Below are positions 5,405-62,483 of a DNA stretch of 64,000 bases, piece by piece. Position numbers and translations under genes: made by a program. The first letter of the stretch is position 1, and each line of letters starts with the position of its first letter. The stretch is from Pseudobdellovibrionaceae bacterium (GTDB taxonomy: Bacteria > Bdellovibrionota > Bdellovibrionia > Bdellovibrionales > Bdellovibrionaceae): assembly GCA_022843825.1 (NCBI GenBank), contig JALHMX010000008.1, positions 1 through 64,000 of the forward strand. The letters run 5' to 3'. Under the pieces are notes generated by a model. It was given only the letters and a program-made list of their open reading frames with translations. It was not told the DNA's origin and searched no databases.

Positions 5405-5701
5405 ATGAGCCGATGTGAACTGACTGGAAAGTCACCAGTAGTTAAAAATTTAGTAAGTCACTCTAATATTAAGACTAAGTCGACGGCAATGCCAAATGTT
5501 CAAAGAAAACGGATATTTAGCAAGACGTTGAATCAAATGGTTCGTCTTTACATGGCAACAAGCACTATACGCGATATGGAGCATATGGGTGGTTTTGATA
5601 AGTTCATTTTAAGTCAAAATGATGGAATTTTATCAAAAAGAGCTATGGATGTTAAAGCTCGTATTAGACGAAAAATGAACAAAAGCAGTAAAAAGGTATA
5701 G
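5405..5701 (+). CDS. rpmB: Large ribosomal subunit protein bL28
   Basis: A 98-residue bL28. The N-terminus (CELTGKSPVVKNLVSHSN) carries the family signature CxxTGK followed by a basic loop. KRIFSKTL and the C-terminal basic helix are also typical. It binds 23S rRNA near the E site. A strong ribosome site (aaggag) precedes the ATG. rplX begins nine bases after its stop codon, so the two are co-transcribed. bL28 is more often paired with bL33; its pairing with L24 here is unusual. Confidence 0.93.
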   Translation: MSRCELTGKSPVVKNLVSHSNIKTKSTAMPNVQRKRIFSKTLNQMVRLYMATSTIRDMEHMGGFDKFILSQNDGILSKRAMDVKARIRRKMNKSSKKV

Positions 5702-5710
5702 GGATAGATC

Positions 5711-5980
5711 ATGTTGAAATTGAAAATTAAAAAAGGCGACAAAGTACAAGTCATTACCGGCGGCGACAAAGGTAAAAAAGGAACTGTCATTGAAGTGAAT
5801 ACATCCGCACTAAAAATTAAAATTGAAGGCGTTAAAGTTCAAACCCATTATGATAAAAAAGAGGGTTTACTTAAAAAAGAAGGTTTTATTGACTACTCTA
5901 ACGTGAAACTAGTTGAAGCTGGTGCGAAAGACGCTAAAGCAAAAAAAACTACTAAGAAGTCAGCGACTAAATCTAAATAG
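5711..5980 (+). CDS. rplX: Large ribosomal subunit protein uL24
   Basis: An 89-residue uL24. The KOW motif is clear (KKGDKVQVITGGDKGKKG, residues 7-24), and IDYSNVKLVE is the conserved L24 C-terminal strand. It ends in a Lys/Ala-rich tail. uL24 is an assembly-initiating protein that binds the 5' end of 23S rRNA. In most bacteria rplX lies inside the S10-spc ribosomal operon between rplN and rplE. Here it is downstream of rpmB, so it is either a relocated copy or a paralogue. The window cannot tell which. Confidence 0.88.
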   Translation: MLKLKIKKGDKVQVITGGDKGKKGTVIEVNTSALKIKIEGVKVQTHYDKKEGLLKKEGFIDYSNVKLVEAGAKDAKAKKTTKKSATKSK

Positions 5981-6023
5981 TTTTTAGAGGCTGGTCTGGG
6001 AAGAATACTCCCGGCAAAAAATT

Positions 6024-6140
6024 CCTAGATATCTACTTTGTAGAGATTCAGTCTAGGTTAATAAAATAAAAATGTTACTTGAAGCTTAAGCCACTTAGAC
6101 TGAATACATGGAAGTGTATAGAAGACTAAGTGGCTTTTTT
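6024..6140 (+). promoter_or_regulatory. Attenuator-like leader with alternative helices
   Basis: Four complementary segments form mutually exclusive pairs. Segment 1 (6024-6036) pairs with segment 2 (6040-6044 and 6052-6057) around a TTT loop. Segment 2 (6046-6058) also pairs over 13 positions, one of them G-U, with segment 3 (6093-6105). Segment 3 (6088-6098) alternatively pairs over 11 perfect bases with segment 4 (6126-6136), and this hairpin is followed by six T. This is the 1:2, 2:3, 3:4 geometry of transcription attenuators and riboswitch expression platforms. The pairing is read directly. Regulation, the ligand and the controlled gene (6108-6710) are inferred. Confidence 0.5.
6088..6140 (+). 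terminator. Intrinsic terminator after rplX (segment 3:4 hairpin)
   Basis: aagccacttag at 6088-6098 pairs perfectly with ctaagtggctt at 6126-6136. A smaller stem (ataca/tgtat) lies inside the loop, and the T-run is at 6135-6140. It ends the rpmB-rplX transcript in its default state. The ATG of the next gene (6108) is inside the loop. Confidence 0.75.
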
Positions 6141-6710
6141 GTATTGGTCATAGCAGTCATGAATTTTACCTATATTCAATCATTTGCGGAAGGTTTGCGA
6201 AGTCAGACGCAAAGCAACCCTATGACGATTATTAAAACTCCTGAGGCAGAAGTTAATTCGACTCAAATGCCTGAAAGTAATTCGCGCGATGTAGCGAGTG
6301 ATTCACTTCCACTAAAAGTACAAATTGTTGAAAACCGTGAGGTAACTGAGGACTCGCTTCCTATGAAAGTGGAAGTTATTGAGAACCGTGACATAGCTAG
6401 CGAAGAAAATCAGAAAAAAACAAAAGTTAAAGCTGAATCTGAAACCGCAATTAAGGAAAATAAAACTGAGAAAAAAGAATTATTTTATATGTGCACCAAG
6501 CAGCGCGAAACTCGCTGGTTACGCCTGTACAATCAATCAGATGGGCGTTGCAAAACTGTTTATTCAAAGACTGGCAATGCAGAGGAAGTAAGTACAGCAT
6601 ATAATTATGAAGCTTGCGAGGCGGTCTTAAAAAATATAAAAGAGAACCTTGAAAAAGGCGACTTTAAATGTGAAGAAAAAACATTGATGGGCGCCTTGGA
6701 TATTGAGTAA
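6108..6710 (+). CDS. Secreted protein with 17-residue repeats, unknown function
   Basis: A 200-residue predicted secreted protein. The N-terminus has a signal peptide (two Arg at residues 5-6, a hydrophobic core to about residue 24, and a likely cut after SFA). The middle is acidic and Lys-rich with two tandem 17-residue units (SLPLKVQIVENRE and SLPMKVEVIENRD). The C-terminal third holds four Cys (CTKQRETRW, GRCKTVY, YEACEAV, FKCEE) that may form two disulphides. The chosen ATG lies in the loop of a terminator hairpin. Later starts would remove the basic n-region, so this start is preferred. It overlaps the downstream amidase gene by one base, so they are co-translated. Confidence 0.65.
   Translation: MEVYRRLSGFFVLVIAVMNFTYIQSFAEGLRSQTQSNPMTIIKTPEAEVNSTQMPESNSRDVASDSLPLKVQIVENREVTEDSLPMKVEVIENRDIASEENQKKTKVKAESETAIKENKTEKKELFYMCTKQRETRWLRLYNQSDGRCKTVYSKTGNAEEVSTAYNYEACEAVLKNIKENLEKGDFKCEEKTLMGALDIE
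6300..6401 (+). repeat. Tandem 51-bp coding repeat (two units)
   Basis: Two in-frame units, 6300-6350 and 6351-6401, encode DSLPLKVQIVENREVTE and DSLPMKVEVIENRDIAS. The DNA has diverged mostly at third positions, so the duplication is not recent and is under protein-level selection. A fragment of a third unit (RDVAS) precedes them. Confidence 0.75.
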
Positions 6711-7525
6711 TGAAAATTGCCCTAGCACAGCTTACTTCGATTGATAGTGTAGAGCATAACGCTAAAGAAATTATTCGATTAGTAGAAGAAGCCTCTCGCC
6801 AGCCGGAGTCGGATAAACCGCTAGTTATATTTTTTCCTGAGAATAGTTTATACTTCAGAATACGATCTGATGAAAAGATGCCTCAATTTTTTTTGGATTC
6901 TAAAGAGATTCAAGTCCTGGAAAATTTAAGTCGAGATACAGGTATTCTATTGCATTTTACTTCAAGTGTATTTGATAAGGGTAAAAATTGGAATGCGACG
7001 GTTCTTATTGAACCCGGAGAAAAAGCCAAAATTATTTATAAGAAAATACATCTGTTTGATATTATGCTGAATGGCGATACAGCCATTCGCGAGTCAGATA
7101 TTTTTTCACATGGTTCTGAAGTAACTAACTTTAAAATTGGTGATTTTGTATTCGGCTCATCCATTTGTTATGATATTCGATTTGCGGAGCTCTATCACAA
7201 GCATGCTTTGCAGCAGGTAGATGCCATTGTTGTACCTGCTGCTTTTCTAGTAAAAACTGGAATGGCTCATTGGGAAATTTTGCTGAAAGCGCGTGCGATA
7301 GAAAGCCAGTGCTACGTAATAGCGCCAGCACAATGGGGAACGCACACAAGTCTATGTAAACAGTTTAAAAGAGAAACGTATGGCCACTCTATGCTGATCA
7401 GCCCATGGGGAGAGTTGATTACATCTAAAAAAGATGGAGTGGGATTAATTTATGGAGAACTCGACAAAAGTCAATGTCAAGACGTGCGTCGCCAGATTCC
7501 TATGAGCTCACATCGCAGAGTTTAG
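6710..7525 (+). CDS. Carbon-nitrogen hydrolase (Nit/omega-amidase family)
   Basis: A 271-residue member of the nitrilase superfamily. The Glu-Lys-Cys triad is visible: E44 in FFPENSLYF, K112 in YKKIHLFD, and C153 in SSICYDIRFAELY. The motif KIHLFD and the overall length fit the Nit1/Nit2 branch, which deaminates oxidised glutathione derivatives or 2-oxoglutaramate-type amides in the cytoplasm. The exact substrate cannot be settled from sequence alone. The start codon overlaps the stop of the upstream secreted-protein gene (TAATG), indicating translational coupling. Confidence 0.85.
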   Translation: MKIALAQLTSIDSVEHNAKEIIRLVEEASRQPESDKPLVIFFPENSLYFRIRSDEKMPQFFLDSKEIQVLENLSRDTGILLHFTSSVFDKGKNWNATVLIEPGEKAKIIYKKIHLFDIMLNGDTAIRESDIFSHGSEVTNFKIGDFVFGSSICYDIRFAELYHKHALQQVDAIVVPAAFLVKTGMAHWEILLKARAIESQCYVIAPAQWGTHTSLCKQFKRETYGHSMLISPWGELITSKKDGVGLIYGELDKSQCQDVRRQIPMSSHRRV

Positions 7526-46406: not shown

Positions 46407-46805
46407 TTACCCATCGCCTTCTTTTTCTTTATCTTCGACCATCTGGAGAAGTTCTTTCAATACTTTTTGCTCAGTGGGTTTAAATTCTGTTAAAGTAGAG
46501 TCATATAATTTTTTGTTATTTATATAAGAATCTGTTAAGCCGGCCACGCCGTCGCGGCTTGGATCTATATTTTCTAGTTCTAAAACATTTTTTAAAGCTT
46601 TAATCAGCTGAGGCTTGTCTTTTGTGGTTAGAACTTTCTTTTGAGCTATGACATCGATTTCCTCTATCAAAGTGGCTATTTTTTCTTTGTTAGCCTGTTC
46701 GATTTCGAGCATTTTGTTAAGCTGAGCACTATTAGACGCTTGTAAGCTGATGGAAACCATCGATAGTAATAAAGTAAAAAATAAAAAACCACGCCTTATA
46801 AGCAT
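46407..46805 (-). CDS. Small secreted coiled-coil-like protein
   Basis: A 132-residue predicted secreted protein. The signal peptide is residues 1 to about 22 (two Arg, a Leu/Phe-rich core, cut after LQA). The rest is helical, charged and coiled-coil-like (AQLNKMLEIEQANKEKIATL). No family is recognised. It lies three bases upstream of the SH3b/CHAP-like gene and in the same orientation, so they are probably co-transcribed and may act together. Confidence 0.6.
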   Translation of the reverse strand: MLIRRGFLFFTLLLSMVSISLQASNSAQLNKMLEIEQANKEKIATLIEEIDVIAQKKVLTTKDKPQLIKALKNVLELENIDPSRDGVAGLTDSYINNKKLYDSTLTEFKPTEQKVLKELLQMVEDKEKEGDG

Positions 46806-46875
46806 GGTTTTACATCGGTATAAACGAAGTATATATTAAGTGCTTTTTACCTCGATTTGACCAAAATAGACTAGA

Positions 46876-61742: not shown

Positions 61743-62483
61743 TTGAAGTTTTGGTTTATTTCTGATCTTCATTTAAAAAATGATAATGAACGCAACAGTC
61801 AAATACTGTTGCGTTTTTTATTGATGCTAAACTTAGAGCCTCAGCGCAATCAACTTTTTTTATTAGGTGATATTTTCGATTTTTGGTTATCTAGCGGAAA
61901 AGTTTTTGAAAAACAGTATCAAAAAATTGTCGAGGCGTTGTCTCAGTTTAAAAAGAACGGTGGCCAGATTTATTATTTTGAAGGAAATCATGATTTTCAT
62001 ATCGACGTTTACTGGACAAAAAAATTTGGTATTCAGGTCATTGAAGATGAGGCCTATTTTAAAATAGCCGATTACTTTGTTCGTTTAGAGCATGGAGACT
62101 TTATAAACCCCCATGATCATAAGTATCTGGCCTATCGCGCTTCAGTACGTCGCCCCTGGGTTGAGTTTATAGGGCATCTTGTTCCTGGTTTCATTATGAA
62201 GTGGTTTGGAGAGGCGATGAGTGCTAAAAGCCGCAAGAAAACCACACATTACTCTGCTAATAATGAAAATGAGATCAGACAAATGATCCGAACCCACGCG
62301 GAATCTATTTATGATGAAAAACCGTTTGATCTTATAATCACAGGTCACATGCACGTAGAAGATGATTATACTTTCGATAAAAAAGGAAAAAAAATACGTT
62401 CAATTAACTTGGGAACGTGGCTTCAACGACCTATAGCTTTAAAAATAGAAGGATCTAACATAGATTGGATTGAGCTTAATTAG
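61743..62483 (+). CDS. UDP-2,3-diacylglucosamine pyrophosphohydrolase (LpxH-type)
   Basis: A 246-residue calcineurin-like metallophosphoesterase. The di-metal motifs are FISDLHL, GDIFDFW, GNHDFH, LEHGDF and TGHMHVED in order, as in LpxH, which forms lipid X in lipid A synthesis. The length matches the family. LpxH-like proteins without confirmed specificity also occur, so the exact substrate is inferred. The start is TTG at 61743, two bases after the ftsZ stop. Cell division and lipid A synthesis thus share one transcript. Confidence 0.82.
   Translation: MKFWFISDLHLKNDNERNSQILLRFLLMLNLEPQRNQLFLLGDIFDFWLSSGKVFEKQYQKIVEALSQFKKNGGQIYYFEGNHDFHIDVYWTKKFGIQVIEDEAYFKIADYFVRLEHGDFINPHDHKYLAYRASVRRPWVEFIGHLVPGFIMKWFGEAMSAKSRKKTTHYSANNENEIRQMIRTHAESIYDEKPFDLIITGHMHVEDDYTFDKKGKKIRSINLGTWLQRPIALKIEGSNIDWIELN

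Follow-up and report, generated by a model that had tools for sequence, protein, structure and literature searches.

The window considered here, that is, the whole 64,000-nucleotide stretch of Pseudobdellovibrionaceae DNA that was analysed, carries on its plus strand two ribosomal protein genes followed by a secreted-protein gene and a hydrolase gene. The first, rpmB (5405..5701), encodes ribosomal protein L28 (Pfam PF00830, E 5.5e-17; over the cut-off of the NCBIfam L28 family). It is followed by rplX (5711..5980) for ribosomal protein L24, the final gene ahead of the terminator discussed below; its product has a KOW domain and matches TIGR01079 with an E of 6.7e-13, narrowly below the family cut-off, and the gene was detected in 57 of the 66 genomes of the family. 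A gap of 127 nt separates rplX from the secreted-protein gene (6108..6710; 200 codons), which has matches in 48 of 60 related genomes; a Pfam search assigned it to no family. Its C-terminal domain, with conserved cysteines, is common to the order, in which it is widespread and multi-copy. The stop codon of this gene is overlapped by the ATG of a gene for a carbon-nitrogen hydrolase (6710..7525) of the nitrilase / deaminated-glutathione-amidase type (Pfam CN_hydrolase, 2.4e-45). The order rplX, terminator, secreted-protein gene, nitrilase gene is kept within the genus Pseudobdellovibrio.

Stems in positions 5981-6150 were listed exhaustively, with folding energies computed for each hairpin; the region as a whole folds with z = -2.7. 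Its two longest stems are those that the first-pass annotation had placed in a four-segment switch, in which helices 1:2, 2:3 and 3:4 would form in mutually exclusive ways. The 2:3 helix, 6046-6058 paired with 6093-6105, has the 13 positions and the one G-U reported for it, and folds at -13.7 kcal/mol. The 3:4 hairpin is considerably more stable (-22.2 kcal/mol). Its 11 perfect pairs, between a 5' arm (segment 3; 6088..6098) and a 3' arm (segment 4; 6126..6136), are as described; of the six T said to come after them (6135..6140), two pair within the helix, so that 3:4 is either 11 bp followed by four T or 9 bp followed by six T. In either case, it is a stable hairpin with a U-tract directly after it, which is the anatomy of an intrinsic (Rho-independent) terminator. 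Arms of at least 11 bp followed by T occur four times in the 64 kb, compared with zero or one in each of six shuffles. A simple terminator scan missed this hairpin because its loop is longer than 8 nt.

The hairpin overlaps the beginning of the secreted-protein gene. The 5' arm is non-coding; the ATG start codon (6108..6110), which lacks a Shine-Dalgarno sequence, lies within the hairpin, and the 3' arm together with the U-tract constitutes codons 7-11 (L-S-G-F-F). Thus, the 3' arm codes for L-S-G and the start of F, and the U-tract for F-F, at the beginning of the hydrophobic core of the signal peptide. In this species, the ATG is also partly within an inner 6-bp stem (ATACAT/GTGTAT). Its predicted pairing with the anti-Shine-Dalgarno sequence amounts to -0.9 kcal/mol, as against a random median of -2.2.

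The region downstream of rplX was compared across 50 Bdellovibrionaceae loci. Among the ten Pseudobdellovibrio genomes that have the locus, eight possess a terminator that follows rplX and spans the start of the next gene; in these eight, the sole plausible ATG of that gene falls within the hairpin, and the first codons include the 3' arm and U-tract. G001 and G005 are the members of the genus without the embedded arrangement. The typical sequence is AAGGCCATTTGAAAATAAAGTATGTTTTCAAATGGCCTTTTT, the U-tract codes for F-F or L-F in most relatives, and in-frame stops directly 5' of the ATG are present in most of them; G008 has no start codon other than the loop ATG ahead of the conserved domain. 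The hairpin of the nearest relative (G007) differs in having a longer, different loop, and a single core pair is mismatched in each of G003 and G004. Overall, 93.8% of cells in the alignment of helix 3:4 are paired, and both sides have changed in four of the eight core pairs (A-U/G-C, U-A/C-G, G-C/A-U, A-U/G-C). The covariation score is 0.433, compared with 0.225 for shuffled alignments (0/500 reach 0.433), while slid versions of the helix score only 0-0.13. As these compensatory changes have occurred although the 5' arm is untranslated, they reflect selection on RNA structure.

In the sister genus Bdellovibrio, the terminator of the same gene is located wholly within signal-peptide codons, AAAGCACTG...CAGTGCTTTTTTTT (K-A-L...V-L-F-F). 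Of 21 genomes, 20 have a hairpin whose stability exceeds that of synonymous recodings (z -2.7 to -8.4, p <= 0.005), the exception being G067, whose hairpin has decayed. The gene starts with TTG, 35-37 nt 5' of the hairpin in three genomes measured, and this TTG has a strong Shine-Dalgarno sequence (-6.4 to -9.0 kcal/mol in three genomes having the hairpin). In G063, the embedded hairpin is absent and a separate terminator stands directly after rplX instead. Five further genera of the family contribute one genome each with a locus of the embedded type (G088, G033, G025, G030 and G019). The fusion of terminator, start and first codons that had been noticed in one genome is hence conserved in its genus, and the homologous gene of Bdellovibrio has an embedded terminator as well.

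AAA and TTT codons are abundant in signal peptides. In principle, a hairpin might arise in such a region simply from the pairing of Lys AAA with Phe TTT codons, and have no role in termination. This would be a coding accident, and is very improbable indeed; the compensatory changes involve a non-coding 5' arm, and the stability lies far above that of synonymous recodings.

The remainder of the four-segment architecture has fared differently. The first-pass annotation had proposed that compensatory changes in all three helices would support a switch; of the three, helix 3:4 alone shows them. Hairpin 1:2 (6024..6057; -10.0 kcal/mol), the supposed anti-anti-terminator, is replaced by unrelated hairpins in relatives. 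A 5-codon mini-frame, M-L-L-E-A (6072..6089), does exist as a candidate sensor peptide, but has no counterpart in the leaders of relatives (read by eye). No known riboswitch aptamer had been recognised upstream, in agreement with an Rfam scan that gave no family at this locus and matched rRNA and tRNA only; an undescribed aptamer is conceivable, but the upstream structure is not conserved among relatives. Leader-peptide and riboswitch attenuators are recognised by a conserved, mutually exclusive anti-terminator, the former also by a conserved translated leader frame. Here, 2:3 is confined to this genome, and the leader frame is not conserved.

Within this genome, a regulated attenuator can nevertheless be envisaged, in which 1:2 permits 3:4 (off) and disruption of 1:2 allows 2:3 to form, leading to readthrough (on). 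The 2:3 stem is better than those in all 300 shuffles of its upstream strand, and any stem of at least 13 bp was seen in one of 300 shuffles; moreover, the growing RNA is predicted to contain 2:3 while its end lies between about 6106 and 6124, with 3:4 taking over at 6136. On the other hand, the full fold (1:2 plus 3:4) at -44.2 kcal/mol is 7 kcal/mol better than a fold with 2:3 forced (-37.1), and no comparable stem exists in seven relatives, G007 included (p 0.21 to 0.93). Together with the lack of conservation of 1:2 and of the mini-frame, this makes a species-specific regulated attenuator unlikely. The four-segment architecture may have been added recently and locally, or be due to chance. 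The first-pass interpretation is therefore partly supported: its four-segment switch is not, and a terminator that the operon shares with the next gene is probably the better label.

Further evidence comes from what is missing where the terminator is embedded. Separate intergenic candidate terminators are found at 3/34 embedded loci and at 9/16 others (p 0.0006), and FliA boxes with at least 10/11 matches at 0/34 and 5/16, respectively (p 0.002); both are Fisher tests that ignore shared ancestry, and two genera contribute most of the 34 embedded loci. These proportions suggest that the rpmB-rplX operon usually has one terminator. The 3:4 hairpin stands in the frd-ampC-type position: it closes the upstream operon where the following co-directional gene begins, and the interval holds no further terminator. 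A clear promoter of the FliA type, for which the consensus in B. bacteriovorus is TTAAG-N16-CCGATA (PMC3627812), is limited to loci without an embedded terminator; at embedded loci, FliA matches occur at chance level only, and FliA promoters were discarded as candidates there. Where the terminator is embedded, the next gene is apparently without a recognisable FliA promoter of its own.

This bears on the idea that the secreted-protein gene has a promoter overlapping the hairpin, from which a leaderless mRNA devoid of the 5' arm would escape the terminator, leaving the latter to serve the upstream operon only. A loop ATG without a Shine-Dalgarno sequence would suit a leaderless message, as would a conserved A-rich stretch (GARAAT type) directly 5' of the ATG, and a second embedded hairpin in the window (46785-46811, minus strand) has a 9/11 FliA-like box, TTAAT-N16-CCGATG, directly upstream. 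At the present site, however, no good sigma-70 or FliA box was found, and 9/11 FliA matches arise by chance in such regions; the probability of such a promoter is accordingly judged to be low.

Directly after rplX, there is a locus-specific conserved sequence of the TAGTCTAAGATTAGTCGAG type, which might be a promoter or a regulator site. Sequences of the TTTAG(A/G)CTAGTCTAAGATTAGTCGAG type are found in the first ~40 nt past the rplX stop at L052 (G002), L050 (G003), L051 (G012) and L048 (G009), and the Bdellovibrio counterpart is AAAGTCTAAATTTGGTCC. This motif was also considered as a repeated regulatory site, and rejected as such: the genomes searched contain no recurrent family of copies.

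The reading to which we assign the highest probability, roughly 60%, is that 3:4 with its U-tract is a leaky intrinsic terminator of the rpmB-rplX operon and, at the same time, the start of the next gene. Termination in vivo, the amount of readthrough and the mode of translation start are what we infer from the anatomy of the locus. The element would consist of an untranslated leader (5' arm), a start codon (loop) and codons (3' arm and U-tract). Most RNA polymerases coming from rplX would halt at 3:4, and a minority would produce readthrough RNA, from which both the secreted protein and the nitrilase would be translated. Since the terminator doubles as coding sequence, the downstream genes would be made from readthrough RNA only. 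On this mRNA, the same hairpin would again cover the start region; being largely paired and without a Shine-Dalgarno sequence, this region is expected to support only inefficient translation start, and hence low expression. It is proposed that leaky termination and a covered start combine to set a low, roughly fixed ratio of the downstream gene products to ribosomal proteins.

Terminators that also act as attenuators are known from other bacteria. The ampC attenuator of E. coli is situated between the ampC promoter and the start codon. There, the promoter is upstream of the attenuator; the present hairpin differs in that it contains the start codon, with its 3' arm and U-tract serving as codons. 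The likeness is that the terminator of the frd operon is itself the ampC attenuator (Jaurin 1981; Grundstrom and Jaurin 1982; as described in an excerpt of PMC6045580), one intrinsic terminator thus ending an upstream operon and limiting transcription of the next co-directional gene. Similarly, in Burkholderia pseudomallei the terminator of nlpD1 is the attenuator of the co-transcribed penA; the same excerpt of PMC6045580 does not describe an overlap with the start codon, which here is conserved with compensatory changes. In Vibrio parahaemolyticus, an incomplete terminator at the end of an operon (VPA1349) allows readthrough into vtrB, a gene that has a promoter of its own and whose transcript starts 102 bases 5' of the start codon; an embedded terminator is not described in the excerpt of PMC10971746. 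Premature intrinsic termination near or inside ORFs is also evident from ORF-internal and 5'-UTR RNA 3' ends in E. coli and Borrelia (PMC7815308, PMC10319736); these ends are scattered and come from RNA mapping, while in the present case the terminator stands at the end of an operon and is merged with the start of the following gene across a genus. A search of open-licence papers found none describing a terminator that overlaps a start codon and coding sequence, and it is this overlap that distinguishes the present case from known terminator/attenuators.

The ampC precedent also suggests gating by translation, whereby a ribosome starting the downstream gene blocks the hairpin, and greater translation capacity or faster growth would bring more readthrough. 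The ampC attenuator is subject to growth-rate-dependent anti-termination (excerpt of PMC6045580), and in E. coli, a terminator is repressed when a ribosome follows RNA polymerase closely (excerpt of PMC4824070). The strong Shine-Dalgarno sequence and TTG ahead of the hairpin in Bdellovibrio are suggestive of such a mechanism. In Pseudobdellovibrio, this window included, the start codon lies within the hairpin and has no Shine-Dalgarno sequence, which would leave a ribosome little chance of loading ahead of hairpin formation; for this locus, translational gating is rather improbable.

If 3:4 is indeed a terminator shared between the operon and the next gene, the same bases are constrained as transcription stop, start codon and signal peptide. 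The overlap is maintained by compensatory change across one genus and by codon choice in its sister genus, and provides a concrete site for studying the expression of a gene across a terminator that contains its own start. Automatic annotation hides such overlaps, which would lead to the mistaken assumption that the ribosomal operon and the downstream genes are co-expressed in the normal way.

Whether this applies more widely was approached with crude gene calls, by which 13 embedded terminators at 5' ends and two internal ones were counted in 1.26 Mb. Genome-wide 5' enrichment was dropped, as an E. coli control with the same calls has a similar 5' bias (five and one; by annotation, two alone are inside genes). 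It is conceivable, though doubtful, that Bdellovibrionaceae repeatedly place operon terminators within the opening codons of the gene that follows, in many cases signal-peptide codons, where Phe codons supply the U-tract. The translation or transcript start of that gene would then decide whether the terminator acts, with the gene's own N-terminus serving as its attenuator leader.

Elsewhere in the window, a terminator-like hairpin, AACGCAACAGTcaaatACTGTTGCGTT, with a T-tract (61789-61815, plus strand) lies ~48 nt past the ftsZ stop and makes up 5' codons of the next gene, ORF 61743-62483 (metallophosphoesterase, SDLHL motif); it is also present in G002, with z = -5.1 and -4.5 against synonymous recodings. 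The minus-strand hairpin at 46785-46811, AAAACCATGCTTATAAGGCGTGGTTTT with a T-tract, follows a gene for a secreted or outer-membrane-like protein, and its 5' arm contains the ATG of a secreted 132-aa protein (ORF 46407-46805). In a sample of Bdellovibrio genome G018 (L126-L145), several lipoprotein or secreted-protein genes start inside or just before terminator-like hairpins; in one example, AAAGGAATGAAAgcacTTTCATTCCTTT, an SD-like AAAGGA accompanies an ATG in the 5' arm.
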